Virus record (IMG/VR): IMGVR_UViG_3300025889_000073
Coordinates: 1-64,000 of that record
Strand: one strand, 5' to 3'
Length of the DNA: 64,000 bases
Source of the DNA: a virus
Part shown: positions 40,777 through 63,872 of the stretch, piece by piece
Layout: each line of letters begins with the position of its first letter
How positions within the stretch are numbered: position 1 is the stretch's first letter
Translations under genes and position numbers: made by a program
The notes under the pieces: generated by a model
Told to the model about the DNA's origin: nothing
The model's database searches: none
The model's input: the letters and a program-made list of their open reading frames with translations, nothing else

Positions 40777-40778
40777 AA

Positions 40779-40854: not shown

Positions 40855-40873
40855 TATTAAAGGAGAAATAAAA

Positions 40874-40921: not shown

Positions 40922-40932
40922 AAATTTGTTAT

Positions 40933-41017: not shown

Positions 41018-41020
41018 ATT

Positions 41021-41097: not shown

Positions 41098-41100
41098 ATT

Positions 41101-41127: not shown

Positions 41128-41204
<77 letters not shown>

Positions 41205-41208
41205 TTAT

Positions 41209-41283
41209 GTGAATGTGGTCGAATGGTTAGGCACCGGATTGCAAATCCGGACTATGCAGGTTCGAATCCTGTCATTCACTCCA
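41209..41283 (+). tRNA. tRNA-Cys (GCA)
   Basis: A 75-nt cloverleaf with acceptor GTGAATG/CATTCAC, anticodon GCA, discriminator U (as required by CysRS) and encoded CCA. Confidence 0.92.
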
Positions 41284-41284
41284 G

Positions 41285-41360
<76 letters not shown>

Positions 41361-41371
41361 TATATATTATT

Positions 41372-43619: not shown

Positions 43620-43681
43620 ATAGTGCCTTTAAATTATTTCTCTTTGATTTTACTATTTTTTAAAAAAGGGGAAATAATCAA

Positions 43682-44476: not shown

Positions 44477-45806
44477 CGCACAAGTAAGCACTACTGGTAA
44501 CCTAATCCAAAACAATGCTTGGACAGGTTGTTGGACACCTACGGCCGATGGCTTTTGGGGTGGGACTTCTGGTGGACCATGTCCTGGTATTAGTAATGAT
44601 GGGTATGATGGTAGTAATCAAATCATCTTTAGTTATCAACAACAAACGATAAGTCAGACCACTGCTCTGGCAAATGCCTTGCCTAACTCTGGTACTGGTT
44701 TACAAGTGAATGGTTATAACTGGCATTGGCACGCAAAGAACTCAAACATCAATGATGGACAGCCTGGTGGTTATGATACTACTGCCTACATTACTGTTGA
44801 CTTGTTGAATGCTTCAGGCTCTATTCTTGAGTCTGACAAGTATGATTATGGTTATAGGATATCGGATTGGATCAATCCAAGTGGCACAAGGACATACACA
44901 AACCCATACAGTTTATCTACGGCCGATTCAATTCGTTTAAGTGTAACTGGTAAAGATGATGGGTTCTGGGCCGGTTACTGGGGTCCAGAGTTCATGCACG
45001 TTACTTTAAATGTTAATTATTCAGTAGATCCATGTTATGATAATCCTTTATACTCTCCAACCTGTTCAGGTTTTGCCGCTGCTCTTGCTTCTTTGACGGA
45101 AACATCTACAGCAGGAACAACCGATGCAGTCGATGGTGTATCGCAAACTGTTACACCTACTACTGTAGAAATAGTTGAAGAAACAAGTAATGCAGCGGCA
45201 CCCACTATTGATGCTGGTGGTATTGAAGTGTCCACTACAGGCGAATTATCTGTACCCGATGGCATTCCTGCCGTTGTGAAAGAAACTAAAAAAGAAGAAG
45301 AAAAAGAGAAAAAAGAAATCAATTATAGTTTGATTGCAATGGTTGTCAGACAGGCAACTGATTTAACAAATGTAATGAGTGTTGTAAATCAAAGTATCAT
45401 GCAGTCATCAAGTGTTGCCTCAAATCCAATAACAACAGAACAAGAAGAAGCGATTATTGAACAGGCAACAACAAGTCAAACAACAACGACAACTGCAACA
45501 ACACAACAACAAGAAAATACAAATCAAACTGTAACGACAGAAACGACAACAGAAAAACCAAAACAACAAACAACGGTTGCTGCTAAAAAACAAGATAATG
45601 AAGCAGCAAGCGGTGGTGTTAGTATGAATGACTTTGCTAAAGTACCTTCTGGTTTTGACGCATATCAAACTCAAATGAGAGATGTAGCATTTTATGCACC
45701 AAAAGAAATTTACAAAGGTCAAACTAATGTTGATAATCGTAGAGCTATGAGAGCACTTGGATCTGATAGGTTACACCAAGAAATGGTGAGGCAACAATAC
45801 AAATGA
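44412..45806 (+). CDS. Large exported protein, unknown function
   Basis: Start at 44412 gives a clear signal peptide (KRLALGLALLLCSVSYSNA). The 464-residue product has a beta-rich N-terminal half with many Trp, Tyr and Gly, and a Thr/Gln/Glu-rich low-complexity stretch near residues 330-400. It overlaps the previous gene by 65 bases in another frame. It probably acts in the periplasm or at the cell surface. Confidence 0.6.
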   Translation: MTLSKRLALGLALLLCSVSYSNAQVSTTGNLIQNNAWTGCWTPTADGFWGGTSGGPCPGISNDGYDGSNQIIFSYQQQTISQTTALANALPNSGTGLQVNGYNWHWHAKNSNINDGQPGGYDTTAYITVDLLNASGSILESDKYDYGYRISDWINPSGTRTYTNPYSLSTADSIRLSVTGKDDGFWAGYWGPEFMHVTLNVNYSVDPCYDNPLYSPTCSGFAAALASLTETSTAGTTDAVDGVSQTVTPTTVEIVEETSNAAAPTIDAGGIEVSTTGELSVPDGIPAVVKETKKEEEKEKKEINYSLIAMVVRQATDLTNVMSVVNQSIMQSSSVASNPITTEQEEAIIEQATTSQTTTTTATTQQQENTNQTVTTETTTEKPKQQTTVAAKKQDNEAASGGVSMNDFAKVPSGFDAYQTQMRDVAFYAPKEIYKGQTNVDNRRAMRALGSDRLHQEMVRQQYK

Positions 45807-45816
45807 GAGGACCATT

Positions 45817-46269
45817 ATGTTAGCAGAATTAGCCGCTATCAATGCCGCATATGGTGTTATTAAAGAAGTCGTTGGTAATGGTCAAGAATTGTATGCTGCT
45901 GGCCAACATATAGCACAATTTTTTAATAGTAAACATGAGTTGCAGAAAAAATTAAATGAGAAACCACCTGACCAAAGAAATCAATTGGAAGAATTTTTTG
46001 CATTAGAGGAAATAAAAGCAAGAGAACAAGAATTAAAAGATTTGATGATTATATCTGGCCGACCAGGTATGTGGGATGATTGGTTAAAATTCCAAGCTGA
46101 CCAAGCTAAAGCTCGGCGTGAAGAAATTGCAAAATTGGAAAGACAAGCTTATTTGAGGAGACAAAAAATTAAAAAATATTTTGATTATTTTTTAATAGCA
46201 TTTGTTTCGACAGCTGTTGTTGCTGGTATAACATGGTTAATAATTTTTATTTCAACATATAATAATTAA
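45817..46269 (+). CDS. Coiled coil protein with C-terminal membrane anchor
   Basis: This 150-residue protein is helical and charged from about residue 30 to 120, then has one membrane segment (FLIAFVSTAVVAGITWLIIFI). Such proteins are regular in T4-like phages near endolysin genes. A lysis or envelope role is likely. Confidence 0.6.
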   Translation: MLAELAAINAAYGVIKEVVGNGQELYAAGQHIAQFFNSKHELQKKLNEKPPDQRNQLEEFFALEEIKAREQELKDLMIISGRPGMWDDWLKFQADQAKARREEIAKLERQAYLRRQKIKKYFDYFLIAFVSTAVVAGITWLIIFISTYNN

Positions 46270-46281
46270 AGGGAGAAAAAT

Positions 46282-46695
46282 ATGAGTAATGAACTTACAC
46301 AAGCGGGTTGGCATCCGGCAGACACAAACGGAGATGGCCAAGTTGATGATTATGAAAGACAGATGTATCTAGAATTCAAACGTAAAGAACTTGAAGACGC
46401 TGATGCACAACGTGATGCCATGCGTAAAATGACTTGGTTTGCATTATTTGGAATGTTGTTATATCCAACAACAATTTTTATCACATCAGCATTTGGACTT
46501 GATAAAGCTGCTGCTATTATTGGAGATATTGCACCAACATATTTTGTTGCAATTTCTGCTTTAGTTGCTGCTTTTTTTGGTGCCAATGCTTATTCTAACA
46601 ATAAAAAATCGACAGGTACACCGCCTCCTGCGGCACCATCAGCACCAAGTGTACCTAAACCTTCAGTACCTTCGGTTTCAGTACCAAAACTATAA
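46282..46695 (+). CDS. Membrane protein with EF-hand-like loop (holin candidate)
   Basis: This 137-residue protein has DTNGDGQVDDYE near residue 14, an EF-hand calcium-binding loop, followed by two or three membrane segments and a Pro/Ser-rich tail. It lies two genes before the GH19 endolysin, so it may be a holin or holin partner. GGGAGA precedes the ATG. Confidence 0.6.
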   Translation: MSNELTQAGWHPADTNGDGQVDDYERQMYLEFKRKELEDADAQRDAMRKMTWFALFGMLLYPTTIFITSAFGLDKAAAIIGDIAPTYFVAISALVAAFFGANAYSNNKKSTGTPPPAAPSAPSVPKPSVPSVSVPKL

Positions 46696-46704
46696 GGATA
46701 AAAA

Positions 46705-47256
46705 ATGTCTAAAAATTTGGATGACCAAGTAGACAAATTGGAAAACGCAGTTGACCCCAATACTGTAATTAGTATTGGGGGATTTAACTTTACTCCAGCA
46801 AAAATTATGATTGCTGGAGGTATATTATCTACTGTATTAGGCGGCCTTTATGGTGCATTTGAAGTCTATAAAGACTATATGGATATGAAAGAGGCAATAC
46901 AATCATATGTTACTCCTGATTTGAGTGATATAAATAAAAATATGGCTGTGTTGAAAGAACAAATGGAAGCAACCTCAAAAGAGGTAACTGTCATTAAAGG
47001 TTCAGTTGCTGAGACTGCACAATATACACAAGAAATTAAGAATGATTTAAAAGGTGATATTCGTGGTATCGAGAAAGTAGTAGAAGGTATTGAAAGGTCA
47101 ACCAAAGAACAACAGAGACAAGTTGACGCCGATTTAAAAACGGCAAGAAATGAAATGAGGGATTTACAGAAAGAAACCGATAAAGGAATCAAAGAAGTAA
47201 AAGCCGAAATGGATAAAAAAATTAAAGAAGCGCTTGATAACCCGCTTGCAAATTAA
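46705..47256 (+). CDS. Membrane-anchored coiled coil protein
   Basis: This 183-residue protein has a membrane segment near residues 28-50 and then a long coiled coil (about 70-180) rich in Lys and Glu. It could span the periplasm in the lysis cluster. Confidence 0.6.
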   Translation: MSKNLDDQVDKLENAVDPNTVISIGGFNFTPAKIMIAGGILSTVLGGLYGAFEVYKDYMDMKEAIQSYVTPDLSDINKNMAVLKEQMEATSKEVTVIKGSVAETAQYTQEIKNDLKGDIRGIEKVVEGIERSTKEQQRQVDADLKTARNEMRDLQKETDKGIKEVKAEMDKKIKEALDNPLAN

Positions 47257-47270
47257 TATAGGAGCAAAAA

Positions 47271-47897
47271 ATGTCTTTTGATTTTGAATTTACGCAAGAT
47301 AAACTTGCACAAATTATTCCAAATGCTGCTTATGGAGTTGATGTTTGGTTTAATGAACTAAATGAACTTTTACCCGTATTTGAAATTAATACGGCACCAA
47401 GAGTTGCCGCTTTTATTGCACAGACAGCTCACGAATCCGGAGGATATCGTGCTCTTTCAGAAAATTTAAATTATTCTGGTGATGCTCTTTGCCGAGTTTG
47501 GCCAAGACATTTCAATGAAGAAAATAAAGAACAGTATCACCGTAATCCTGAAGCAATTGCAAATCGTGCCTATCGTAATCGTATGGGTAATGGTGATGAA
47601 GAATCCGGTGAAGGCTGGGCTTATCGTGGTCGTGGACTCATTCAATTGACAGGTAAAGATAATTATAGTAGATTTGCTGCATATGCTGAAATGGCTGTTG
47701 AACAGGCACCAGAATATATTGAAACTCCCCGTGGTGCGGTCCATTCAGCTTGCTGGTTCTGGTATTCTAATGACTTAAACACTTTTGCTGATGCTGGTGA
47801 TTTTACTGGCATGACTAAACGTATTAATGGTGGTACTATTGGTTTGGAAGACCGTATTAAACATTATGAAGAAGCATTACACCTTTTTGGAGCGTAA
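47271..47897 (+). CDS. Endolysin, glycoside hydrolase family 19
   Basis: This 208-residue protein has QTAHESGGYRALSENLNYS (catalytic Glu55) and YRGRGLIQLTGKDNYSRF, both hallmarks of GH19 chitinase-like endolysins that cut peptidoglycan. No signal peptide is present, so a holin is needed for release. TAGGAGC precedes the ATG. Confidence 0.92.
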   Translation: MSFDFEFTQDKLAQIIPNAAYGVDVWFNELNELLPVFEINTAPRVAAFIAQTAHESGGYRALSENLNYSGDALCRVWPRHFNEENKEQYHRNPEAIANRAYRNRMGNGDEESGEGWAYRGRGLIQLTGKDNYSRFAAYAEMAVEQAPEYIETPRGAVHSACWFWYSNDLNTFADAGDFTGMTKRINGGTIGLEDRIKHYEEALHLFGA

Positions 47898-47898
47898 T

Positions 47899-48129
47899 AT
47901 GAAATATATTTTAGGACTATTCATTGCTCTTTCGTTGGCATTTCCAGGTTATGCTGCAACGAAAACTCCCGTTAAAGTTGATTGTTCGGTAAAGAAAAAC
48001 GCTAAAAAATTGGAATGTAAAGAAGCACCAAAAACCAATGTGAAGGTTGAAGTTAAAAAACCAAAAAAGGTTGATAGAAAAGCACCAAAAAAAGTACAAA
48101 AAAAAGCTGAAGAAAACAATAAAAAATAA
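47899..48129 (+). CDS. Small exported Lys-rich protein
   Basis: Start at 47899, one base after the endolysin stop, gives a signal peptide (LGLFIALSLAFPGYA) and a mature part of about 55 residues with many Lys and Pro and two Cys. It may bind the outer membrane or peptidoglycan; function unknown. Confidence 0.6.
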   Translation: MKYILGLFIALSLAFPGYAATKTPVKVDCSVKKNAKKLECKEAPKTNVKVEVKKPKKVDRKAPKKVQKKAEENNKK

Positions 48130-48161
48130 TTGCCGCAAAGGTATATGAATTGTGTTATACT
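48130..48161 (+). promoter_or_regulatory. Promoter-like module, copy 1
   Basis: TTGCCG (48130-48135) is 20 bases from TATACT (48156-48161), which has TGTGT ahead of it as an extended -10. The spacing is long, so the TG may carry the activity. A very similar module is at 48246. Confidence 0.5.
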
Positions 48162-48169
48162 ACGAACAA

Positions 48170-48244
48170 ATGTTTGATGTTTTTGTACACTTTTGGGTAG
48201 AGTTTTATTATTTGCCGTATAGAATTATGGGTAAATTTGGATAG
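48170..48244 (+). CDS. 24-residue micropeptide
   Basis: A frame of 24 codons rich in Phe, Tyr and Val starts 8 bases after the first promoter-like module and ends just before the second. It would be leaderless, like several early genes here. It may be a short membrane peptide. Confidence 0.35.
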   Translation: MFDVFVHFWVEFYYLPYRIMGKFG

Positions 48245-48245
48245 A

Positions 48246-48277
48246 TTGCCGCAATAAATATCATTTTGTGATATACT
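48246..48277 (+). promoter_or_regulatory. Promoter-like module, copy 2, leaderless
   Basis: TTGCCG (48246-48251) is 20 bases from TATACT (48272-48277), with TGTGA before it. The RNase H ATG at 48287 follows after 9 bases. Confidence 0.55.
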
Positions 48278-48286
48278 GATGAAACT

Positions 48287-49135
48287 ATGATTATATTTGA
48301 CTTTAACCAGGTAGCAATATCAAATTTAATGGAACAAATAGGTTCTTCCAAAACTCAGGTCGAGGAGGGGCTTGTTCGTCACATGATATTAAATACCATT
48401 CGCACCTATGTGAAAAAATTTAAGCAATCACATGGACCTGAAGTTGTCATTGCTTGTGACAATAAAAATTATTGGCGCCGAGAAATATATCCACATTACA
48501 AAGCTTCACGAAAAAAAGCGAGGGAAGCTTCTGGACATGATTGGAATACTATTTTCGAATGCCTGAATAAAATTCGTGATGAACTAAAGGAATTTTCTCC
48601 CTATAAAGTTGTTGATGTTCATACCTGTGAAGCAGATGATATTATTGCTACGTTGGTGATGAAACATTCAGCAACACAAAAGGTTATGATTCTTTCCTCC
48701 GACAAAGACTTTGCTCAACTACAGAAATACCCTAATGTTGAACAATATTCTCCAATATTAAAGAAATTTATTAAAGAACCTCTGCCTTCAATGCAGTTGA
48801 AGCAGTTGATTATTCGTGGAGATAAAGGTGATGGAATTCCAAATATTCTTTCGGCCGATGATACGTTTGTTACTGGTACTAGGCAAAAACCTATTACTGA
48901 AACAAAAATTATCAAGTGGATGAATCAGGACGCTAAGGAGTTTTGTACTGAAGATATGTACCGTAATTTTATTCGGAACGAAACTTTAATTGACCTTTCA
49001 AAAATACCCGAAAATTTGACGCAAGAGATTCTAAATAAGTATGAAAATAGTGTAGTTCATTCTAAGTCTGAATTTATGAACTACATGATTAGTAACCGAC
49101 TAAAAAATTTAATTGAAGTGATTGATGAGTTTTAA
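48287..49135 (+). CDS. rnh: T4 Rnh-like RNase H / 5' exonuclease
   Basis: This 282-residue protein is a FEN1-family nuclease: IIFDFNQVAI (first acidic Asp), VVIACDNKNYWRREIYPHYKA, TCEADDIIATL, LSSDKDFAQL and IRGDKGDGIPN are in the right order. T4 Rnh removes RNA primers from lagging-strand fragments. The start is at the transcription start of its own promoter. Confidence 0.92.
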   Translation: MIIFDFNQVAISNLMEQIGSSKTQVEEGLVRHMILNTIRTYVKKFKQSHGPEVVIACDNKNYWRREIYPHYKASRKKAREASGHDWNTIFECLNKIRDELKEFSPYKVVDVHTCEADDIIATLVMKHSATQKVMILSSDKDFAQLQKYPNVEQYSPILKKFIKEPLPSMQLKQLIIRGDKGDGIPNILSADDTFVTGTRQKPITETKIIKWMNQDAKEFCTEDMYRNFIRNETLIDLSKIPENLTQEILNKYENSVVHSKSEFMNYMISNRLKNLIEVIDEF

Positions 49136-49552
49136 ATGATAAAAGGTAAATTATACACCGAAATTATTTCGGAATTTGAATCGTGTGAAACAAAAAAAGA
49201 TAGGATGTCTATATTGCAAAAATATGATACTCCTAGGTTTAGAAGTTTTTTAAACTATGTATTGGATGAATCTGTAGAATTCGATGTGCAAATTCCAAAC
49301 TATCGACCTGCATTAGAACCTGCTGGATTAAACTATACATATCTTGATAATGAAATTCCTAAACTTTACAGATTCATAAAAGGTCATCCTCAACGACCTA
49401 CTGGACTAACTCCCAAAAAACAAGAACAACTGCTGGTTGTTATTTTAGAATCTTTATATAAAGATGAAGCTGAAATGCTTTGTAAATTAATACAACGAAA
49501 ATTAAAAATCCCACATTTAACAAATAAATTTATTAAAGAAACTTATAATTAA
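49136..49552 (+). CDS. DUF6433-like protein
   Basis: This 138-residue protein abuts the rnh stop. RFRSFLNYVLDESVEFD, the Pro-rich middle and LVVILESLYKDEAEML fit a family of T4-like phages that I recall as DUF6433. It is adjacent to rnh in many such genomes. Function unknown. Confidence 0.7.
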   Translation: MIKGKLYTEIISEFESCETKKDRMSILQKYDTPRFRSFLNYVLDESVEFDVQIPNYRPALEPAGLNYTYLDNEIPKLYRFIKGHPQRPTGLTPKKQEQLLVVILESLYKDEAEMLCKLIQRKLKIPHLTNKFIKETYN

Positions 49553-49555
49553 TAT

Positions 49556-50326
49556 ATGAAAGTAGCTGTGATTACTCCAACTATTGGAGCAAACACATTA
49601 TCTCAATGTGTTGAATCTGTACAAAATCAAACCTATGAAAATTTAACCCATTACATTTATTTGGATGGCGAACAACATTATGACAAAATTCATCCTATAC
49701 TTGGCGAACATTCAGGCCGAAGAACTATCAAAACTACCTCTCTGGAAGAAAATGTTGGTAAAGGTTGGTATGGCCATCGTGTCTATGCTGCTTGTTCCTT
49801 TCTCGTTAATGCTGATGTTATATGTTACCTCGATGAAGATAATTTTTATGAGCCTAATCACGTTGAGGGGTTGGTTTCTAAAATTAAAGAAGGCGCTGAA
49901 TGGGCCTATTCATTAAGGAAAATTTATGATAAACAAGGAAACTATCTCTGTGAAGACAATTGTGAATCGATTGGTAAATGGCCTGTCTATTTTAATGATG
50001 AAGTATTTCACATTGATACATCTAGTTTTGCCATACGCCGTGATATTGCTGTTCGGATTGGCCATGCTTGGTACGGCAAATGGGGAGCAGATAGACAATT
50101 TTTTGGCACACTAAAACATCACTTTAAAGATTTTGAATGTTCTGGAGAATATACACTTTGTTATAGACTTGATGGTAATGAAGGTTCTGTGAATGAAGAA
50201 TTTTTCGAAAAGGGTAACAAAATTCAATCGGAAAAGTATGACAATAAATTTCCATGGAAAAAAGAATTTTATAAAAACAATGAAAGAGGACATACGATTG
50301 GACCAGGAATCAAAATTGTCCCCTGA
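49556..50326 (+). CDS. Glycosyltransferase family 2
   Basis: This 256-residue protein has VAVITPTIGANTLSQCVESV at the N-terminus and VICYLDEDNFYEPNH as the DxD metal site, typical of GT2. The C-terminal half is rich in aromatic residues. It overlaps the next gene by 47 bases and may act with it in sugar transfer. Confidence 0.85.
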   Translation: MKVAVITPTIGANTLSQCVESVQNQTYENLTHYIYLDGEQHYDKIHPILGEHSGRRTIKTTSLEENVGKGWYGHRVYAACSFLVNADVICYLDEDNFYEPNHVEGLVSKIKEGAEWAYSLRKIYDKQGNYLCEDNCESIGKWPVYFNDEVFHIDTSSFAIRRDIAVRIGHAWYGKWGADRQFFGTLKHHFKDFECSGEYTLCYRLDGNEGSVNEEFFEKGNKIQSEKYDNKFPWKKEFYKNNERGHTIGPGIKIVP

Positions 50327-51260
50327 TAAAAAAACAGCTTTTGTCACCGGCGCCGCAGGATATCTAGGAAGTCATTTGTGTAAGGCCTTGAAAAATGATG
50401 GGTGGAATGTTGTAGGTTTTGGCCATAGAAGATATACAAAAAATCCATATATTGATATAATGCACTATGGAGATATTCGTGACCAAGAGTCTTTATATTA
50501 TATTTTTGATAAGGTAAAAATTGACACCGTTTTCCATTTGGCGGGCAGAATTGAATCAGGCATATCTTTTGCGGAGCCAACAGAGTTTTATTCTGTTAAT
50601 GCGGGTGGTACCACAATATTATTGAATGTTATGAAAAAATATGATATTGAGAATATTGTGTTTTCATCAACTGCTGCCGTATACAAAACAAAAAACACTC
50701 CTATCAAAGAAGATGATGAGAAAGATGATAATTCTCCTTACGGTTATTCAAAACTTTTTGCTGAAAAAGCTATTGAGGCTTCTGGTTTAAATTATGTAAT
50801 TTTTAGATATTTCAATTTAACAGGTGCCGACCCATCTGGAGAATTTGGTGAAGCTCATGAACCAGAAACACATTTGATACCTAGACTCATATTAAATTCT
50901 GAAAATTTTGAGATTAATGGTAACGACCATGAAACAATAGACGGAACTTGTGTCAGAGATTATGTCCATGTTTCAGACGTTTCGGATATACATTCTAAAG
51001 CAGGAAATTATTTAATGTCTGGAAATAAATCTGTAATTTTAAACATAGGTACAGGCAAAGGATACTCTATATTGGAAGTGGTCTCAGAACTTGAAAAAAT
51101 TATAGATAAGAATATACCAATAAAATTTTTACCTAAAAGACCGGGTGATGCTTCTAGTTTAATTGCCGATATTACTCTTGCCCAAAAGATATTGAATTAC
51201 CAGCCAAAACATGATATAATCTCAATGTTAAAAACAGCACACAGATGGTATAAAAAATGA
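50280..51260 (+). CDS. UDP-glucose 4-epimerase-like (GalE family)
   Basis: Start at 50280 gives a 326-residue protein. FVTGAAGYLGSHLC is the NAD site, VFHLAGRIE and FSSTAAVYK match the second and Ser motifs, and YGYSK gives YxxxK. RYFNLTGADPSGEFGEAHEPETHLIP is the usual GalE substrate region (UDP-Glc/Gal). It may provide UDP-galactose to the GT2 enzyme. Confidence 0.88.
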   Translation: MKEDIRLDQESKLSPDKKTAFVTGAAGYLGSHLCKALKNDGWNVVGFGHRRYTKNPYIDIMHYGDIRDQESLYYIFDKVKIDTVFHLAGRIESGISFAEPTEFYSVNAGGTTILLNVMKKYDIENIVFSSTAAVYKTKNTPIKEDDEKDDNSPYGYSKLFAEKAIEASGLNYVIFRYFNLTGADPSGEFGEAHEPETHLIPRLILNSENFEINGNDHETIDGTCVRDYVHVSDVSDIHSKAGNYLMSGNKSVILNIGTGKGYSILEVVSELEKIIDKNIPIKFLPKRPGDASSLIADITLAQKILNYQPKHDIISMLKTAHRWYKK

Positions 51261-51826
51261 TAATGATGGAAAAAAATGATGATATTATAACTGCTGAAGA
51301 TAAAATATCTTTGGAGTTTTTGGAAAACCATGTACATTTCATAAACGGTGACATTAACGAAGATACTGTAGGGAAAGCTATTCGTTGGATTATCTATGAA
51401 AATCTAAAAGGTTCTGCTGCTTTGACTTTGTACATCAATTCTGATGGTGGTAATTTACCTGATGCTTTTGCTTTAATTGATGTTATGCGTATGTCTAAAT
51501 GCCCGGTTCGAACAATAGGAATTGGCTCTATTTGTTCCGCTGCATTTTTGATTTTTGCAGCTGGCACTACCGGACAAAGATTGATTGGAAAAAACACTCA
51601 AATAATGTGTCACCAATTTTATACCGATAGTGAAGGTAAATATCACGATTTGAAAACTAAAATTAAAGAAGATGATAGAATGAACAAGAGAATGGTTGAT
51701 TTACTTGTTTATTGTTCATCATTGACAGAAAAAGAAGTGAAAAATAAACTTTTACCCGCAAGCGATGTTTGGTTGTCAGCTGAAGACCTTTTATCATTTC
51801 ATTTAGCAGATAACATTATTTTTTAG
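51257..51826 (+). CDS. clpP: ClpP-like protease
   Basis: This 189-residue protein overlaps the previous stop. The catalytic triad can be placed: Ser in IGSICSAAFLIFAAG, His in TQIMCHQF, and Asp in ASDVWLSAEDL. It is close to ClpP in size and order (DGGNLPDAFALIDVM for the SGG..AG..IYDTM region). It would cut proteins fed by ClpX or ClpA, or be used in capsid processing as some phage ClpP-like proteins are. In this genome it could also act on tmRNA-tagged proteins. Confidence 0.88.
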   Translation: MIMMEKNDDIITAEDKISLEFLENHVHFINGDINEDTVGKAIRWIIYENLKGSAALTLYINSDGGNLPDAFALIDVMRMSKCPVRTIGIGSICSAAFLIFAAGTTGQRLIGKNTQIMCHQFYTDSEGKYHDLKTKIKEDDRMNKRMVDLLVYCSSLTEKEVKNKLLPASDVWLSAEDLLSFHLADNIIF

Positions 51827-51844
51827 GAAGGAAGGAAAATAAAT

Positions 51845-52006
51845 ATGATTTCTGGTGGTAAAAAATACCAAAAAACTATTAAAACAAAGTACAAAAAAAA
51901 TGAAGCCGACCAATCGGTATTTGAAAAAGAAAAAAATAAAAAAAGACATCACGATAAATCATATTATAGATTAATGAGAGAGGAGAAAGAAGATTATGCC
52001 CTCTGA
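51845..52006 (+). CDS. Small Lys-rich protein
   Basis: A 53-residue frame behind GGAAGGA is extremely basic at its start and middle. It overlaps the next gene by 11 bases. Function unknown. Confidence 0.45.
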   Translation: MISGGKKYQKTIKTKYKKNEADQSVFEKEKNKKRHHDKSYYRLMREEKEDYAL

Positions 52007-52181
52007 AGAAATAAAACCAACAATTCAAGTTCCTAGTGAAAAAAAATCTGTAATTATGGAATCAATTAGAGAGAAACAAAGTAAATTATTTAAAGCAAGA
52101 TTGGAACATATGAATCCGGATTTGAATATCAAATCTAAATTAACAAGTTTAAATTTAAAAAAATATGTTAAGGACGAATAA
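51996..52181 (+). CDS. Small basic helical protein
   Basis: This 61-residue protein has a helix with IREKQSKLFKARLEHM. AGGAG at 51980 is its likely binding site. No family recognised. Confidence 0.5.
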   Translation: MPSEEIKPTIQVPSEKKSVIMESIREKQSKLFKARLEHMNPDLNIKSKLTSLNLKKYVKDE

Positions 52182-52182
52182 T

Positions 52183-52353
52183 ATGAATTCTTACCGAAAA
52201 GAGTTGAAACTGAAAATTAGTGAGTTGGAAGAAAAAATTCTGAATGATGTTGGTGAAAAACAAAAATTGGAATTAGAATTAGCTAGACTCAAATTGGCAG
52301 AATTTGAAGAAGATTTGGTCGAAAGTAAAAACCAACAATTATTGAATGGTTAG
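52183..52353 (+). CDS. Small coiled coil protein
   Basis: Start at 52183 behind AAGGA gives a 56-residue Leu/Lys/Glu-rich coiled coil. It ends inside the left arm of a hairpin, which may terminate the transcript. Confidence 0.5.
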   Translation: MNSYRKELKLKISELEEKILNDVGEKQKLELELARLKLAEFEEDLVESKNQQLLNG

Positions 52354-52386
52354 TAAGCACTAACCTACTGTTGTTTTTATACAACA
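52348..52386 (+). repeat. Two adjacent inverted repeats
   Basis: GGTTAGT/ACTAACC (52348-52365, loop AAGC) is followed by TGTTGT/ACAACA (52369-52386, loop TTTTAT). The same order of two hairpins is at 53842-53884, ahead of another promoter. They may terminate or regulate. Confidence 0.6.
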
Positions 52387-52393
52387 AATACGC

Positions 52394-52421
52394 TTGACAT
52401 TTCCATTGGTTGTGTTATACT
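52394..52421 (+). promoter_or_regulatory. Sigma70-type promoter, near-leaderless
   Basis: TTGACA (52394-52399) and TATACT (52416-52421) are 16 bases apart with TGTGT before the -10. The ATG at 52431 follows after 9 bases. Confidence 0.75.
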
Positions 52422-52430
52422 CCAAGAACT

Positions 52431-52862
52431 ATGGAAATTTTAAAAGAAATTACTAATTGGCAAGTCGATTATCGGCAGCCAAATCATACTTATTTAATTA
52501 ATAATAAAAATCAAATAATTGCCTATGCAAAATGGCATTCAAATGATATTATGATATTTAAAACCAGAAGTGTTTTGAATAAACGATATCGCAAATTTGA
52601 AAAAGTTAATCATTCTGGATTATCTAAATTAATTAATCAATTTAAATCAGAAGATAATAAATCTGAAAACAAAAGTACTACTTTTACTAAAAGTATTAAT
52701 ACTCGTATATTTAAAGTTAAATCTAAAGATAAAGAATATAATGTAGAATATAATACTTTAGGTCACTATTTTGTCTGTTCTTGTGTAGGTTTTGGTTACA
52801 GACGAAAGTGCCGCCATGTTGATGCTGTTGCAAAAAAGATACAGCCCACAAAAAACGCTTGA
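52431..52862 (+). CDS. SWIM zinc-finger protein
   Basis: This 143-residue protein ends with a SWIM zinc motif, CSCVGFGYRRKCRH (CxC, eight residues, CxH), preceded by beta strands FKVKSKDKEYNVEYN. SWIM domains bind DNA or protein in recombination and regulation proteins. The N-terminal part is basic. It is transcribed from its own promoter. Confidence 0.75.
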   Translation: MEILKEITNWQVDYRQPNHTYLINNKNQIIAYAKWHSNDIMIFKTRSVLNKRYRKFEKVNHSGLSKLINQFKSEDNKSENKSTTFTKSINTRIFKVKSKDKEYNVEYNTLGHYFVCSCVGFGYRRKCRHVDAVAKKIQPTKNA

Positions 52863-52886
52863 CAATTTTGCCTAAACCTGTATAAT
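52859..52886 (+). promoter_or_regulatory. Sigma70-type promoter
   Basis: TTGACA (52859-52864, overlapping the previous stop) and TATAAT (52881-52886) are 16 bases apart. The leader is the shared CCATTCCATG type. Confidence 0.8.
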
Positions 52887-52917
52887 CCATTCCATGATGA
52901 TTGAAAAGGAAATTGAA

Positions 52918-53148
52918 ATGACCGAATTCGAAACCAAGTGCTACGGTATGTCAGAGCAAGATATCCGTGAGCAGTACATGAAATCCATCACTGCTAAGTG
53001 CTCCGGTCTGGAGATGGTTGTTGCTAGCATTCTGTCCGACTGCCAGGAAATGTTGGTCTGCGGTGATGATCGTGAAGATATTCGTAAGCAGTTAAATGTT
53101 GCAAAATTCATTTTGTTTGAGATGAGCGATGCAAAGGAGTCTGTATGA
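52918..53148 (+). CDS. Hypothetical protein
   Basis: Start at 52918 is behind AAAAGGAA; the upstream ATG at 52894 belongs to the leader. The 76-residue acidic product is helical with several Cys. Function unknown. Confidence 0.5.
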   Translation: MTEFETKCYGMSEQDIREQYMKSITAKCSGLEMVVASILSDCQEMLVCGDDREDIRKQLNVAKFILFEMSDAKESV

Positions 53149-53339
53149 AAAAAATTGACAATTTTGTAATTTCTTCTGTTGTAAAAAATATTGTTGAAAT
53201 GGATGATGAGCAGATTTACTGTTTAGCGGAACTATTAATTGATTATCCGCAAAAAGCTGAACGACTATCGAATTCAATTAATTTTGCATTTATGGACCGT
53301 CAGTTAACCGCTGTTGAAGTACAAGAACCTATTTGTTAA
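53145..53339 (+). CDS. Small helical protein
   Basis: This 64-residue protein overlaps the previous stop and is made of two or three short helices. No family recognised. Confidence 0.5.
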   Translation: MKKIDNFVISSVVKNIVEMDDEQIYCLAELLIDYPQKAERLSNSINFAFMDRQLTAVEVQEPIC

Positions 53340-53348
53340 GGATTTATT

Positions 53349-53507
53349 ATGTTTTTGGTTTGCCTTGGTTTCATGTTGGTGTTTGGTGCTGTGGGCGGCA
53401 TGGAAACCGACCTTTCGGGTCAATACTTTGCCTCACAATTAGTTTTTGCTGTGTTAGGATTGGTATTGATGTATGTTGGTACCGTTCAAATCAATAACAA
53501 ACAATGA
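53349..53507 (+). CDS. Small membrane peptide
   Basis: A 52-residue frame has two hydrophobic segments (LVCLGFMLVFGAVGG and LVFAVLGLVLMYVG). It overlaps the next gene by ATGA. Confidence 0.5.
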   Translation: MFLVCLGFMLVFGAVGGMETDLSGQYFASQLVFAVLGLVLMYVGTVQINNKQ

Positions 53508-53845
53508 TTATTTACACCCGATTCAAAAAAAGCAAAAAGAAGAAGCCTACTGCTAAGCAGCGTGAGCTTCAAGCTTCTTGGGAAGAATTGATTAAAAAAA
53601 CTGCTTTGAAAACCGTGGCTAAGCCACCGGTAGGTTTGACGCCATATACAGAACCAAAAATTTATCGGCGTGAAACTCAAAATTACCCAAGTTTAGATAC
53701 CGGCGCTGGGTTATGCACCAAGCCAATTCATGGCAAAGTATACACTGGTACTGCTATGAAAGGTATTGGCACTTTGCATAAATCCAATGCCGTTCCAATT
53801 TTCTCCGATGAAGAAGCTCGAGACCAGGCTGCAATGCGGAGGTAA
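53504..53845 (+). CDS. Conserved basic phage protein
   Basis: This 113-residue protein starts with a Lys-rich stretch and has YRRETQNYPSLDTG, GTAMKGIGTLHKSNAVPIF and DEEARDQAAMRR, a pattern common in phage hypothetical proteins. Function unknown. Confidence 0.65.
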   Translation: MIIYTRFKKSKKKKPTAKQRELQASWEELIKKTALKTVAKPPVGLTPYTEPKIYRRETQNYPSLDTGAGLCTKPIHGKVYTGTAMKGIGTLHKSNAVPIFSDEEARDQAAMRR

Positions 53846-53884
53846 TACTAAAGTATTACTTTTTAATGGTTGTATTTTTACAAC
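53842..53884 (+). repeat. Two adjacent inverted repeats, terminator-like
   Basis: GTAATAC/GTATTAC (53842-53859, loop TAAA) is followed by TTTTT, then GTTGTA/TACAAC (53869-53884). The first could end transcription of the gene it touches. Compare 52348. Confidence 0.6.
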
Positions 53885-53899
53885 ATTACCAAAAAATGC

Positions 53900-53927
53900 T
53901 TGCCTTTTTCTGTGGATTTGATATAAT
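53900..53927 (+). promoter_or_regulatory. Sigma70-type promoter
   Basis: TTGCCT (53900-53905) and TATAAT (53922-53927) are 16 bases apart. The leader continues CCTTCCATAG, the same as at 33430 and 52887 except that its ATG is lost, showing that this upstream ATG is not needed. Confidence 0.7.
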
Positions 53928-53960
53928 CCTTCCATAGAGAGTTGAGAAGGAAACAAGATT

Positions 53961-54710
53961 ATGAAACTGCTGTCAACCGGTAACCCAAAAGTTTTAAAAG
54001 GACTAAAACAAGGTTTTAATACTTATATCTTACATTTGGCACCAGCTAGTGTATCTGGTTATGAGACTTGTCCAAAACGGACTGCTGGTTGCACCTCCGC
54101 TTGTTTGAATACTGCTGGTCGTGGTGGTATGTTCAAAAAAGGCGAAAACACCAATGCAATTCAAAAAGCTCGTATTCGTAAGACCAAAATGTTTTTCGAA
54201 AACCGTGTTGAGTTTTTCTCACAATTGGTAAAAGATATTGAATTGGCGATTAAACAATCTGCCAAAAAAGATTTGACTCCCGTTTTTCGTTTGAATGGTA
54301 CCAGTGACCTTGCTTTCGAAAAATATGAAGTGGTTCGAAATGGTAAAATGTTTCGCAATATTTTCGCTGCGTTCCCTGAAGTCCAATTTTATGATTACAC
54401 TAAGGTGCTAGGTCGCAAAGTGAATCAAATTGAAAATTATCAATTGACTTTTTCTGCCGCTGATGGCAATGATGCTGATGTGACAAAAGCAATTGCTCAA
54501 GGTTATAATGTTGCTGTCGTGTTTGGTCTGAAAAAGACTGAAGCGATGCCTGAAAATTATCTTGGTATGCCAGTTTTCAATGGTGATGAAAGTGACCTAC
54601 GTTTTCTGGATCCAAAAAATGTTGTAGTTGGTTTGTATGCCAAAGGTAAAGCGAAAAAAGATACCTCTGGTTTTGTGAAATATCCTACTTTTATGTTGAA
54701 AGCTGCTTAA
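53961..54710 (+). CDS. Gene product 88-like Cys-containing protein
   Basis: This 249-residue protein has LHLAPASVSGYETCPKRT, then GCTSACLNTAGRGG, followed by NAIQKARIRKTKMFF. This N-terminal Cys-rich pattern fits a family recalled as phage gene product 88. The four Cys could bind a metal or cluster. The C-terminal half repeats beta-alpha units, as in a barrel. Function unknown. Confidence 0.65.
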   Translation: MKLLSTGNPKVLKGLKQGFNTYILHLAPASVSGYETCPKRTAGCTSACLNTAGRGGMFKKGENTNAIQKARIRKTKMFFENRVEFFSQLVKDIELAIKQSAKKDLTPVFRLNGTSDLAFEKYEVVRNGKMFRNIFAAFPEVQFYDYTKVLGRKVNQIENYQLTFSAADGNDADVTKAIAQGYNVAVVFGLKKTEAMPENYLGMPVFNGDESDLRFLDPKNVVVGLYAKGKAKKDTSGFVKYPTFMLKAA

Positions 54711-59192: not shown

Positions 59193-59858
59193 ATGAATTT
59201 TTGTCATGTTAAATTGGATGAGTTGAATTTCGAAATGGAATCAGAAACCACGGAAAGGGGTAGAGTCTATAAAGTTCCAGGAGGAGGACTCTACCCTTCT
59301 ATCACAACAGTATTATCATCATACAATAAAAAAGCTCTGATGGAATGGCGCAAAAGAGTTGGTGAAGAAGAAGCTAATCGTGTAGCTAAAGCTGCATCTG
59401 GTCGTGGAACCAGATTACACAATACGGTTGAGAAATATCTCCTTAATGAGTTGACTGACGTTAAAATAAAAACTATGATGCCTGACATTAAGGAAATGTT
59501 TTTCGATATGCGTAAAATCATTGATGAGAATATTGGTGATATTTATGGTATTGAACAACCACTTTATTCCCACAAATTAAGACTCGCAGGCCGTTGTGAT
59601 TGTATTGCGGAATGGAATGGACAGTTATCAATCGTGGACTGGAAGACCGCAAGTAGAGCCAAAGACAAAGAACATATAAAGAACTATTTTATGCAGGCTA
59701 CGGCTTATGCAGAAATGTTTGAAGAACTGACCGGAAAGGCAATAGACACAATTGTTGTGGCGATAGCTGTGCAAAGTGAATCTCCGCAGGTGTTCATTGA
59801 GAGTAAGTATAAATACCTTCTCCCTTTAAATGAATATAACGAAAGGTACCAGAGATGA
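59193..59858 (+). CDS. RecB/Cas4-like PD-(D/E)xK exonuclease
   Basis: This 221-residue protein has GRGTRLHNTVEKYL (His/Glu), LAGRCDCIAEWNGQLSIVDWKTA (the D...DxK core) and YFMQATAYAEMF, the motif order of PD-(D/E)xK nucleases in phages. It would act in recombination or DNA degradation. The YPSITTVLS segment is also typical. Confidence 0.85.
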   Translation: MNFCHVKLDELNFEMESETTERGRVYKVPGGGLYPSITTVLSSYNKKALMEWRKRVGEEEANRVAKAASGRGTRLHNTVEKYLLNELTDVKIKTMMPDIKEMFFDMRKIIDENIGDIYGIEQPLYSHKLRLAGRCDCIAEWNGQLSIVDWKTASRAKDKEHIKNYFMQATAYAEMFEELTGKAIDTIVVAIAVQSESPQVFIESKYKYLLPLNEYNERYQR

Positions 59859-60217
59859 AAAGTATACTGGCAGCGCTTTTGATTATGTTGCCGGTGATTG
59901 GTTTTGCTGAACCAAAAAAGAAAGAAGAATCTAAGCCGTTAATGATGAATGTGGAAACAATGTGCAATGATTCATCATTATTAGATTTGGTTATGTTTAA
60001 ATATGGTGAAATGCCTGTTATAAAAATGGAATCAATTCGTAGTTTAACTAAAGGAGATGATACTACGTCATTTGTTTCAGTTTTATTTGTTAATCAAAAA
60101 ACAAGAAGTTGGACTTTGATTGAAGAACGAGGACCCTTATATTGTGTTATTGGTGTTGGAGTGAACATTCGAATTTTTTCTGATAAACAATCTGAGGAAC
60201 AAACTAAATATTATTGA
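59855..60217 (+). CDS. Small exported protein
   Basis: This 120-residue protein overlaps the nuclease stop and has a signal peptide ending VIGFA|E. The mature part has two Cys and a GPLYCVIGVGVN segment, seen in periplasmic proteins of T4-like phages. Function unknown. It ends just before the tmRNA. Confidence 0.6.
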   Translation: MKSILAALLIMLPVIGFAEPKKKEESKPLMMNVETMCNDSSLLDLVMFKYGEMPVIKMESIRSLTKGDDTTSFVSVLFVNQKTRSWTLIEERGPLYCVIGVGVNIRIFSDKQSEEQTKYY

Positions 60218-60219
60218 TA

Positions 60220-60570
60220 TATTGCTGTATGAAGCAATGAGAAAGGTGTTCTGGACGGCGGTTCGATTCCGCCCACCTCCACCATAAGCACACTGGCCTT
60301 TGGGTGTAGTCCGTAAGGATCAAGAGATAATTTCAAAGACCCCATATAACCAAGTTAGTGTGCTTTTGATGGGGGTGTACAGGTTTCGACAGGGCAATGA
60401 GTAACAGAGTGGACAGCAGGGCAATGTGAAAGCCCTTAGGGTTGAGACTACTCGGCCGAAGAAGCAAAAAAAGTAAACGCAAACGATGAAGTTTACGCAC
60501 TAGCTGCCTAATAAAAGGTAAGCAGGAGTTTTTGGAGGTTTTGACTTGGCAACAGAACAAAACCTCCTTT
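60220..60570 (+). ncRNA. ssrA: Circularly permuted (two-piece) tmRNA
   Basis: The acceptor piece comes first: T-stem GGCGG/CCGCC with loop TTCGATT (60257-60273), then acceptor strand CACCTCC and ACCA (60274-60284). After an 86-base spacer whose ends pair (AAGCACACT 60286-60294 with AGTGTGCTT 60357-60365), the coding piece starts with GGGGGTG (60371-60377), which pairs with CACCTCC over 7 bp. The third pair is G-U, the alanine identity element. GTTTCGACAGGG follows, the conserved tmRNA 5' region. The tag frame 60479-60508 reads ANDEVYALAA and ends with tandem TAA stops. A 10-bp stem (60535-60567) lies near the 3' end. This order is that of two-piece tmRNA, known from alphaproteobacteria, some cyanobacteria and some betaproteobacteria. 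The ends of the mature pieces and helix P2 are not resolved. Confidence 0.92.
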
Positions 60571-60599
60571 CGGAAAAGTATTGAAAAGAGTGAAAAGAT

Positions 60600-60929
60600 A
60601 TGATTGGTATAGATTTAACTAGAATTTCTAGGTTTGAAGGTATTGATTTAGAACGCCTTGGTATGAAATTAGGTCATAAATTAGATAGTCCAAAAACTGC
60701 TGCTAAAGTTTGGGCCTGTCTTGAGGCTTTAACAAAAGCTGAAGGAAAAAAGTTTAACCCCAAAAATATAAAGTTACTTTTTAACGTAGCCTGTGCGCCA
60801 ACGGTAAAAGGTGTTGACCCTAATCCTATGGTTTATTCTGACCGTGTATTATCTGGTGAATATATATTATCTTTAACCCATGAAGGCGACTATGTTGCCG
60901 TTGTTGCTTTGCGTAAGGAAATGAAATGA
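60600..60929 (+). CDS. acpS: Holo-ACP synthase (AcpS-like phosphopantetheinyl transferase)
   Basis: This 109-residue protein starts right after the tmRNA. MIGIDLTRISRF has the metal-binding Asp5 of AcpS, WACLEALTKAEGKKF is the second motif (usually WxxKEAxxKA; the first Lys is Leu here, the Glu is kept), and ILSLTHEGDYVAVVAL matches the C-terminal strand. AcpS moves 4'-phosphopantetheine from CoA to acyl carrier protein. The next gene is such a carrier. Substitution of the motif Lys lowers certainty about activity. Confidence 0.82.
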   Translation: MIGIDLTRISRFEGIDLERLGMKLGHKLDSPKTAAKVWACLEALTKAEGKKFNPKNIKLLFNVACAPTVKGVDPNPMVYSDRVLSGEYILSLTHEGDYVAVVALRKEMK

Positions 60930-61189
60930 CAAGAGAAGAAGTGATTAATCAAATAAGTGAACTTTTTAATTCCAAATATGGCATTTTGTTGACAGATTAT
61001 CCTGAAGATACTGATGTTACACTATTCGCTGAAATCAATGATAAATTAGATTCTATTGAATTTATGAATTTTATTTTTGATGTTGAGGATATGTTTGAGA
61101 TTAGAGATGCTGGTGACAATGGTGCACCAACAAAATTAGGTGAATTATACGATATGTTCGAAAAAGCTATTTTGGAAAAACAAAAATGA
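60926..61189 (+). CDS. acpP: Acyl carrier protein
   Basis: This 87-residue acidic protein overlaps acpS by ATGA. INDKLDSIEFMNFIFDVEDMF places Ser43 in the DS(L/I) phosphopantetheine site, followed by the helix II pattern with Glu-Asp-rich sequence. It would carry acyl chains as thioesters for the synthase at 62080. A short insertion (RDAGDNGAPT) near residue 60 differs from E. coli AcpP. Confidence 0.88.
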   Translation: MTREEVINQISELFNSKYGILLTDYPEDTDVTLFAEINDKLDSIEFMNFIFDVEDMFEIRDAGDNGAPTKLGELYDMFEKAILEKQK

Positions 61190-61971
61190 AAAATCTTTTT
61201 AGGGGAACATCGAAAAATTCTCAAATAGTCATAGTGTCTCAAGTTATATTGGGAACATTATCGGGAATATATTTCTTGTTTACCGGTGCATATAGTTATA
61301 TTTGGTATGCATTTATAATGTTTTTCGTTTTCAATCATTTTTTCCACAACGTAGCACTACATAGATATTTTTCACATAAAGCTTTTAAGACAAACAAATT
61401 TTGGCATATTTTTATGGCCATGTTTTCACCATTAGCTTCTGCGGGTTCTCCTTATGGTTATGCCATGGCACATAGAACTCATCATATGTATTCTGATGGA
61501 GAAAAAGACCCAACGAATTTAAATCAAGGCCTTTTGAACGTGGCTTTTTTTCGATGGAACTTAAAACACGTTCCATTACCAATTATGAGAAGTTTGGGTA
61601 ATGATAAGTGGATTATGTTATCACATAATTACTATGTCGGTATAATTTTACTTTTCTGGTTGACATTGATGATTATTGATGTTAGACTGGCCTTGATGTA
61701 TAATTTGGCCGGCCTGTTTATGTTTTTTGAATATTGTGTTATTAATATTGTCAATCATTCTGGATTGCCTTTTTCTTATCGAAATCACGACACCAAAGAC
61801 AATACAACAAATGATTTATTTACAGGACTATTTTGTGGTGACTGGCACAATAATCATCACAATAAGGCCACCAATTGGAATCAAAGGGAGAACTGGTGGG
61901 AGTTTGATATACCCGCACAAATGATAAAGATGATTAAATATGATGATGCAGATGATAAAGCATATAATTAA
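61186..61971 (+). CDS. Fatty acid desaturase, second copy
   Basis: This 261-residue membrane protein has the three His boxes HRYFSH (about 62-67), HRTHH (about 99-103) and WHNNHH (about 224-229) with four hydrophobic segments between and around them. It is related to the desaturase at 24969 but clearly diverged (for example GEKDPTNLNQG in place of TDKDTHAPTK). Here it is in a cassette with ACP and KAS, so an acyl-ACP or phospholipid substrate is possible. It overlaps ACP by ATGA. Confidence 0.93.
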   Translation: MKNLFRGTSKNSQIVIVSQVILGTLSGIYFLFTGAYSYIWYAFIMFFVFNHFFHNVALHRYFSHKAFKTNKFWHIFMAMFSPLASAGSPYGYAMAHRTHHMYSDGEKDPTNLNQGLLNVAFFRWNLKHVPLPIMRSLGNDKWIMLSHNYYVGIILLFWLTLMIIDVRLALMYNLAGLFMFFEYCVINIVNHSGLPFSYRNHDTKDNTTNDLFTGLFCGDWHNNHHNKATNWNQRENWWEFDIPAQMIKMIKYDDADDKAYN

Positions 61972-62083
61972 TCGAATATATCGCCTTTTGGGTGGTGAAT
62001 ATGTTTGGTGGCAAACTTTAGGATATTTAATCATACACTCATTAATTTTTTATCAAGTTGTGTACTTGGAATATATTAAATGA
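61952..62083 (+). CDS. Small membrane protein between desaturase and KAS
   Basis: A 43-residue frame (ATG 61952; earlier ATGs from 61940) overlaps the end of the desaturase gene and the start of KAS by ATGA. It is basic at the N-terminus and then hydrophobic (TLGYLIIHSLIFYQVVYL), so one membrane segment. It could tether the cassette enzymes to the membrane; this is inference. Confidence 0.5.
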   Translation: MIKHIINRIYRLLGGEYVWWQTLGYLIIHSLIFYQVVYLEYIK

Positions 62084-63273
62084 ACAGACGAGTTGTTATT
62101 ACTGGTATTGGATGTGTCACACCAATTGGTGTTTCTTATACTGAAGTCAAAGATTCTTTGATGACCGGTAAATCTGGTATCAAATATTATGAAGACATAA
62201 AAGCAAATCTTGGTCGAGTTGAGTTTGATATTGATTCACAAATTGAACCGTTAGACCAAACTATCACAGATAGAATTTCCAGATTTGCATGGTATTCTTA
62301 TTTGAAATGTATAGAAGATGCCAAAGTTACAAGTGAAGATGTTGATGGAATTTTCTTTGGTGTTGGTTTTTGTGGCAGTTATACGATTGAGAACACTTTT
62401 CCAGAATATTTAAAAAATCGCCGGGCAAGACCAAACACTTTAGTTAATATTTGTCCTAATTCTCCTGCTTGTTTCATTGCACTCAAGGAAAAAATTACAG
62501 GCATAAATTTTACATATAATAACGCTTGTGCTTCATCAACTTTAGCTTTGGGTGAAGCATATGAAAAAATTTCAAATGGCCAATGTGATGGTATGATTGT
62601 CGGCGGCACAGAATCCTCCGTTAACGATTATGGCATCACAACGTGGCACGGAATGAGAGCTATATCACCAAAAGATGAAGGTCCAACAGCGTGTAGACCT
62701 TTTTCTAAAGATAGAACTGGTGTTGTTGTGGCTGAAGGTTGTGCTGTTTTTTATTTGGAAGAATATGAAAAAGCTAAAGCTCGTGGCGCTAAAATTTATG
62801 CTGAGATATTTGGATATGGAACATCATGGGGCACAGAGTCTATGACCAAACCTAGTGTCGAAGGTGAAAAGAGGGCTATATTAAAAGCTATAGATAAAAT
62901 ACCACAAGGCAGAAAGGTAACCTTTATATCAGCTCATGGTACAGCTACTCCTACTGGTGATATGGTTGAACTACAAGCTATTAGTGAATGTTTTGGAGAG
63001 GAAGTTGAGGAAATTGCAATCACCTCGACAAAATCTCTACACGGTCATACACTAGGTGCCGCAGGGGCAATTGAAACTTTAGGATGTATTGCCGTTTTAG
63101 AAGAAGATAGAATTATACCAAATTGGCATTTAGGTGAACACGACCCGAATACGCCAGAAAATGTATTCTTACCCACTAAACCTATTGACAAAAAGCAGGA
63201 TTTGTGTTTTAATAACTCATTTGCTTTTGGTGGCAGCAATGCCGTTTTAGTTCTTGGTAAATGTTTGGAGTGA
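62080..63273 (+). CDS. fabF: Beta-ketoacyl-ACP synthase (FabF/FabB-like)
   Basis: This 397-residue full-length synthase has the nucleophile Cys150 in NNACASSTLALG, His286 in ISAHGTATPTGD, Lys318 and His323 in TSTKSLHGHTLGAAGA, and the C-terminal NNSFAFGGSNAVLVL. It condenses malonyl-ACP with acyl-ACP and so lengthens acyl chains or makes polyketides. It works on ACP, which two genes upstream provide. FabF, FabB or polyketide KS cannot be separated by eye, so the symbol is tentative. Confidence 0.92.
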   Translation: MNRRVVITGIGCVTPIGVSYTEVKDSLMTGKSGIKYYEDIKANLGRVEFDIDSQIEPLDQTITDRISRFAWYSYLKCIEDAKVTSEDVDGIFFGVGFCGSYTIENTFPEYLKNRRARPNTLVNICPNSPACFIALKEKITGINFTYNNACASSTLALGEAYEKISNGQCDGMIVGGTESSVNDYGITTWHGMRAISPKDEGPTACRPFSKDRTGVVVAEGCAVFYLEEYEKAKARGAKIYAEIFGYGTSWGTESMTKPSVEGEKRAILKAIDKIPQGRKVTFISAHGTATPTGDMVELQAISECFGEEVEEIAITSTKSLHGHTLGAAGAIETLGCIAVLEEDRIIPNWHLGEHDPNTPENVFLPTKPIDKKQDLCFNNSFAFGGSNAVLVLGKCLE

Positions 63274-63608: not shown

Positions 63609-63872
63609 ATGTCAAATTTAACGCCTTTTGAAATTCGACTAGAGTTACTGAAAATGGCTCAAACGATGGTCGAACAAGATTATTATGCAAAACGTGAAGT
63701 CATCGCAAATCAATATGCAACAGATTGTGATGATGCAAAACTCCAGGGTAAACAACCACCTACACATCCTGGATTTCCTCCATACCCATCAGAAGCAGAA
63801 GTCATTGCGAAAGCACAGACTTTGAATACCTTTGTTTCTAATCTTCCTTTAGAATCTAAGAAGAAGCCTTGA
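63609..63872 (+). CDS. Conserved late phage protein
   Basis: This 87-residue protein has FEIRLELLKMAQTMVEQDYY and FPPYPSEAEVIAKAQTLNTFV, a pattern conserved in T4-like cyanophages. It is followed by a strong terminator. Its function is unknown; the late promoter suggests a virion or assembly role. Confidence 0.65.
   Translation: MSNLTPFEIRLELLKMAQTMVEQDYYAKREVIANQYATDCDDAKLQGKQPPTHPGFPPYPSEAEVIAKAQTLNTFVSNLPLESKKKP

Follow-up and report, generated by a model that had tools for sequence, protein, structure and literature searches.

A permuted tmRNA gene at the exonuclease-gp33 locus of T4-like phages and the mosaic structure of its alleles

The first 64,000 nucleotides of the viral record IMGVR_UViG_3300025889_000073 (IMG/VR), hereafter the window, contain a stretch that a first-pass annotation, made from the letters alone, had read as a circularly permuted tmRNA gene of a phage. 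The questions raised by this locus are whether a phage keeps such a gene as a working RNA of its own, and what its place beside a changing set of genes means. The window opens a T4-like phage record of 171,728 bp, whose closest exonuclease and gp32 relatives belong to Kyanoviridae-type phages; among annotated exonucleases, the one of phage C48C1 is nearest (48%), with cyanophage exonucleases next.

Architecture of the gene and its surroundings

ARAGORN called a permuted tmRNA (tmRNA*) at 60192-60602, with the tag ANDEVYALAA followed by two stops, and Rfam cmscan matched two models at the same place: RF04321 (tmRNA_permuted) at 60223-60511 with 133.4 bits (cut-off 47, E=6e-26), and RF01850 (beta_tmRNA) at 60167-60584 with 102.5 bits (cut-off 84); most of the bacterial members found score well above this on the latter model, at 220-305 bits. 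The T-arm, acceptor strand and CCA precede the 5' acceptor strand, the tag and the 3' structures, which is the order that defines a permuted gene. The first-pass annotation had proposed these searches; they agree with its reading, including a 7-bp acceptor stem (60274-60280 with 60371-60377) with a G-U third pair, G3-U70, and a downstream tag frame closed by a double stop. The tag frame has a protease-directing C-terminus. The features of the locus are as follows.

59193-59858, + strand: PD-(D/E)XK exonuclease gene (Pfam PF12705), left neighbour of the tmRNA, kept beside it in relatives and in phage Melnitz
60223-60284, + strand: acceptor piece, with the 5' side of the inter-piece helices, the T-arm, the 3' acceptor strand CACCUCC and ACCA (RF04321 match starting at 60223; T-stem and acceptor pairs covary in 17 relatives)
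60257-60261/60269-60273, + strand: T-stem (T-arm and acceptor 3' strand together, 60257-60284)
60274-60280, + strand: acceptor 3' strand
60281-60284, + strand: ACCA
60285-60370, + strand: internal spacer of 86 nt, predicted to be removed from the precursor (helix compared with shuffles, fold, covariation)
60371-60478, + strand: coding piece, 5' part, with the acceptor 5' strand GGGGGUG (60371-60377), a D-like/UUCGAC region, an inter-piece helix and the stem AGGGC/GCCCU (ARAGORN, Rfam)
60479-60514, + strand: tag reading frame ANDEVYALAA with stops TAATAA (ARAGORN)
60534-60567, + strand: 3'-terminal hairpin GGAGGUUUUG-[ACUUGGCAACAGAA]-CAAAACCUCC, end of the tmRNA (stem changes, loop conserved)
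60600-63273, + strand: variable cassette of AcpS-like, ACP-like, fatty-acid desaturase and FabF-like ketoacyl synthase genes; the related contig L072 lacks it
63609-63872, + strand: small conserved gene, right border of the cassette, upstream of the endolysin, gp33 and gp59 homologues

A 9-bp pairing across the spacer (AAGCACACT/AGTGTGCTT), already pointed out in the first-pass annotation, held up against shuffled sequences and in the covariation of 17 phage homologues described below. It extends to a spacer-closing helix of 12 bp with two G-U pairs (60286-60297 with 60354-60365), matched by none of 200 shuffles, and the fold predicted for the precursor is 4.5 SD better than those of dinucleotide-shuffled sequences. 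The ACCA lies opposite UGAU (60367-60370) with one C.A mismatch, so that in the modelled fold the acceptor and spacer helices would form one interrupted helix with ACCA facing UGAU. The spacer helix and UGAU were considered as phage-specific traits and rejected as such, as bacterial genes have a helix in the same register and some of their spacers end in UGAU; it is mainly spacer length that separates the phage set, with the longer spacers, from the sampled bacterial genes.

Beyond the tmRNA and the cassette lie homologues of an endolysin, gp33 (late-transcription regulator), gp59 (helicase loader) and gp32. The four-gene block possibly represents a phage fatty-acid remodelling cassette; its desaturase matches PF00487, and its AcpS-like match to PF01648 is weak and below the cut-off. 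A protein search of viral contigs found no viral relatives of the FabF-like protein, and tblastn against phage records returned distant matches only, at about 36% identity or less, many in bacterial-looking records. No SmpB gene was found in the phage record, which may be incomplete, so that host SmpB would presumably be used. In addition, six tRNA genes (Thr, Leu, Arg, Pro, Cys, Met) were detected by ARAGORN in a cluster at 40779-41360 of the window.

Conservation at the locus and compensatory change

An exonuclease search of IMG/VR yielded 40 loci, some on contigs that are near-copies of one another. A permuted tmRNA stands beside the exonuclease in all 30 loci whose exonuclease has at least 58% protein identity, 28 being called by ARAGORN and two (L109 and L126) missed by it and found by Rfam only; among the more distant exonuclease loci it was present in 1/10. 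Further viral contigs, found with a tmRNA DNA pattern, carry the exonuclease, the tmRNA and the genes corresponding to those at 63609 and 63915 in the same order at lower identity. The isolate Melnitz has the order nuclease, permuted tmRNA, gp33 and gp59, which makes the locus the same as that of a published case. The tmRNA gene of this phage group is thus a fixed resident of the exonuclease-gp33 locus, at the left edge of a variable cassette site.

In the syntenic set, all ARAGORN-called alleles have open tags of the ordinary type, nearly all ending in -LAA, -IAA or -MAA. One of these tags, ANDERFALAA, occurs in several phage relatives and often also in the sampled bacteria of beta type. In L109 the gene is truncated (L056:7520-7800), the promoter and tRNA-like half being kept and the tag and 3' end lost, which indicates that full function is not always needed. 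This natural tag-less permuted allele is reminiscent of the domain-only tmRNA of mycobacteriophage DS6A. Near-consensus sigma-70 promoters, with 11-12 of 12 matches and 17-nt spacing, were found in eight relatives (L100, L101, L102, L106 and L110-L113), about 101-110 nt upstream of the CCA. Just upstream of the window tmRNA no promoter better than chance was found, so this copy may depend on read-through.

Covariation was scored in 17 distinct syntenic alleles, over gap-free anchored blocks that were joined: 30 nt up to the CCA, 12 nt from the start and 16 nt from the end of the spacer, and the 7-nt 5' strand. Their placement followed the known geometry and was done manually, they omit the middle of each spacer, and the alleles compared are related to one another. 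Within this frame, 95.6% of the 459 cells (27 pairs in 17 alleles) form standard pairs and 16 of the 27 pairs show double-sided changes. The covariation score was 0.515, compared with 0.147 for shuffled sets, none of 500 shuffles scoring as high, and it was at most 0.125 when partners were slid; the tmRNA structure is therefore not due to chance. Strong compensatory change was observed in the T-stem, the acceptor stem and the spacer helix. In the acceptor stem, for instance, GGGGGUG/CACCUCC is replaced by GGGCCAG/CUGGUCC or GGGGCUG/CAGCUCC, with the neighbouring pairs 4-6 changing on both sides and the third pair, G3-U70, invariant in 17/17 alleles. Compensatory change together with this invariant pair indicates that the RNA is under selection.

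Relation to known phage and bacterial tmRNAs

The first-pass annotation had pointed to standard tmRNA in some phages but to no well-described permuted one; the literature contradicts this. The Methylophilales phage Melnitz (MZ577097) was reported to carry one in 2022, and in the same work 53 two-piece tmRNAs were counted among 133 distinct phage tmRNA structures and about 2% of the phage genomes surveyed carried a tmRNA (PMC9004378); the 2025 tmRNA database contains 79 sequences from phages (PMC11915505). Permuted phage tmRNAs are thus already known, in some marine phages among others, and the window gene is a further case. Like the phage of the window, Melnitz is a T4-like phage of the same broad group with the permuted tmRNA between a PD-(D/E)XK nuclease and gp33/gp59, and its gene shares the spacer helix (TAAACACTT/AAGTGTTTA), UGAU before the mature 5' G and a long spacer (142 nt). 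However, Melnitz fits the alphaproteobacterial model, has a longer tag (ANDNYVPVDYALAA) and carries a glutamine riboswitch after the tmRNA, whereas the window gene fits the betaproteobacterial model, has a short tag and no riboswitch, and is followed by the fatty-acid gene cassette. Stenotrophomonas phage Mendera and Xanthomonas phage Rb1 also resemble the window in an ARAGORN-permuted call, a spacer helix and UGAU, but are other phages with different gene neighbourhoods and tags. In the stretches of their GenBank records examined (L085, L086) these permuted tmRNAs are unannotated. Mycobacteriophages (the Bxz1 group and the domain-only DS6A) and Bacillus phage G likewise carry tmRNAs, which are not described as permuted in PMC4131195, that of DS6A having no tag. 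A paper on Pseudomonas phage pf16 was set aside as a tmRNA case, since it concerns SspB and no tmRNA was found. Very long predicted tags of 28-29 aa, such as AENADTFDFTAMSFTGNTVTGSSKVALAA, were observed in other viral permuted tmRNAs (L031, L032, L041, L065, L069, L020). Earlier descriptions of a syntenic allele series, compensatory evolution, intragenic mosaicism or a cassette border were not found in a limited literature search.

Betaproteobacterial permuted tmRNAs (RF01850, RF04321) share with the window gene the segment order, G3-U70, T-arm, tag type and register of the spacer helix, but mostly have shorter spacers, have UGAU more rarely and form their own clade with the phage genes outside. 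In a tree of 63 permuted tmRNAs with spacer and tag removed, the 14 bacterial beta tmRNAs sampled group together in a single clade (97/84), and phage genes from syntenic and other loci alike fall outside it and intermixed; the window tmRNA does not group with the bacterial ones despite its RF01850 score above cut-off. Bacterial sampling in this tree is narrow, mostly from one family, and several of its branchings are poorly supported. Spacers measure 19-237 nt in phages (28-214 in the syntenic set) compared with 4-42 nt in the sampled bacterial beta genes, and 77% of the phage spacers end in UGAU compared with 7% of the bacterial beta ones. As the phage genes lie intermixed outside the bacterial clade, the sequences suggest a phage-resident tmRNA pool rather than recent captures from hosts. 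The bacterial side was sampled in several ways. When the phage tmRNA DNA was compared directly with a sample of bacterial genomes, most matches were short stretches of the T-arm, chiefly in standard tmRNAs; family searches in large taxa gave few beta-type genes, probably because only a few candidates per genome were scored; and one bacterial family gave 14 genes above the RF01850 cut-off. A bacterial genome of the same GTDB class as a Lysobacterales MAG (L183) carries a permuted tmRNA with the tag ANDDNFEVALAA and, judged by eye, an SmpB-like frame on the opposite strand nearby.

The suggestion in the first-pass annotation that the tag may reveal the host found no support. The exact tag ANDEVYALAA is found in only six GTDB r220 contigs, each of them gammaproteobacterial; ARAGORN calls a tmRNA in four, in every case standard rather than permuted. 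Tags also vary between close phage relatives, and a host assignment from the tag was rejected.

Mosaic alleles, possible cassette exchange and the probable role of the gene

A near-identical relative, the contig behind L099, is 99.95% identical to the window over 18 kb (36621-54620), with two differences between 53620 and 60222. Inside the 350-nt tmRNA there are about 35 differences, including compensated stem changes, such as those in AGGGC/GCCCU, and the L099 tag is ANDERFALAA; similarity stops at 60570, with none from 60571 on. The next 12.7 kb of the contig hold genes other than those of the window, encoding a TauD-like dioxygenase, a desaturase, a cytochrome P450 and a TctA transporter. 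The L099 contig may be a chimeric assembly at this junction, but the clustered and compensated differences inside its tmRNA are unlike an assembly error. This cargo of at least 12.7 kb after the tmRNA of a near-identical contig (L139:6958-19733) is unusual, or else the contig is chimeric. Similarity is also lost 45-60 nt past the tag in the pairs L114/L116, L114/L119 and L116/L122, and contig L072 encodes proteins 93-96% identical to those of the window further downstream, without the fatty-acid cassette. L072 also has the 3' hairpin twice (900-1260): the second copy follows a small ORF, about 300 nt further downstream, and has a T run and a stem that differs from that of the first copy yet remains complementary.

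The alleles are recombinant mosaics. In L106, the spacer agrees with L101 (29 informative sites against 3), whose place is taken by L102 in the tag and 3' end (33 against 0), a segmentation that exceeds all 300 permutations. A broader reading, to which we give an even chance, is that the tmRNA locus is actively recombining and multi-allelic, with acceptor/spacer and tag/3'-end modules reassorting, compensatory pairing keeping function and exchanges at the 3' end bringing other cassettes. If so, the phage tmRNA would combine its function as an RNA with that of a conserved crossover zone at which auxiliary genes are swapped.

As to function, the gene very probably encodes a working two-piece tmRNA of a T4-like phage that relies on the host for maturation and trans-translation. 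Judging from the predicted structure, a single transcript would fold back on itself, bringing the acceptor strands, ACCA/UGAU and the two ends of the spacer together in a long helix with interruptions, and host RNase P and 3'-processing enzymes would excise the spacer, leaving two base-paired RNAs. Alanyl-tRNA synthetase would charge the acceptor through G3-U70, host SmpB would bring the charged RNA to stalled ribosomes, and the tag ANDEVYALAA would direct the incomplete protein to host proteases. The phage would probably benefit by keeping ribosomes free when infection breaks up host mRNAs.

Other explanations of the locus are less probable. The lack of an SmpB gene in the phage record would also fit a decoy or modulator, in which the phage tRNA-like domain competes with the host tmRNA for SmpB and alanine and so dampens or retunes host ribosome rescue. 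The truncated L109, with its tRNA-like half and no tag, points the same way, as it resembles the domain-only tmRNA of DS6A, for which tmRNA inhibition has been reported (PMC4131195; PMC11915505). However, a decoy would need neither a tag nor conserved coding-piece structure, whereas all other ARAGORN-called syntenic alleles keep their open, ordinary tag and both the coding-piece stems and the 3' hairpin show compensatory change, which makes this reading unlikely.

That the sequence is kept only as a recombination or attachment site, with no RNA function, could account for its position at the border of variable cassettes and for the second 3' hairpin copy after the small ORF in L072. This is nevertheless very improbable, since covariation across the tRNA-like domain and spacer, with G3-U70 invariant, disfavours a mere recombination site; the dedicated promoters of relatives also argue against it. 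An attachment site proper was rejected: the tmRNA end is not directly repeated at the opposite border of the cassette in the window, the cassette genes examined include no integrase, and the only possible repeat is the one in L072. It is improbable in the extreme that the tmRNA belongs to a host chromosome and stands in this contig through misassembly or contamination, or that it was captured from the host very recently. The match to a betaproteobacterial-type model, and a tag (ANDERFALAA) common to sampled beta-type bacteria and several phage relatives, would be expected of such an origin, but 30 viral contigs, as well as the isolate Melnitz, have the gene at this locus, the 14 sampled bacterial genes form a separate clade, and the phage spacers are longer than those of the sampled bacterial beta genes.

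Most phages rely on the ribosome rescue of their host, and here a phage group keeps its own permuted tmRNA, in a fixed place and under structural selection. Its tags, which change between close relatives, offer a natural allele series for asking what phages gain from a rescue RNA of their own and whether the tag is adapted to the proteases of the host. Of greater interest is the shuffling at the locus, the permuted gene being kept at one site across the phage group, at the edge of a swappable gene block. Judging from the mosaic alleles, and from the break between cassettes at the 3' end of the RNA, a conserved RNA gene may serve as a crossover zone through which phages exchange genes independently of integrase systems.
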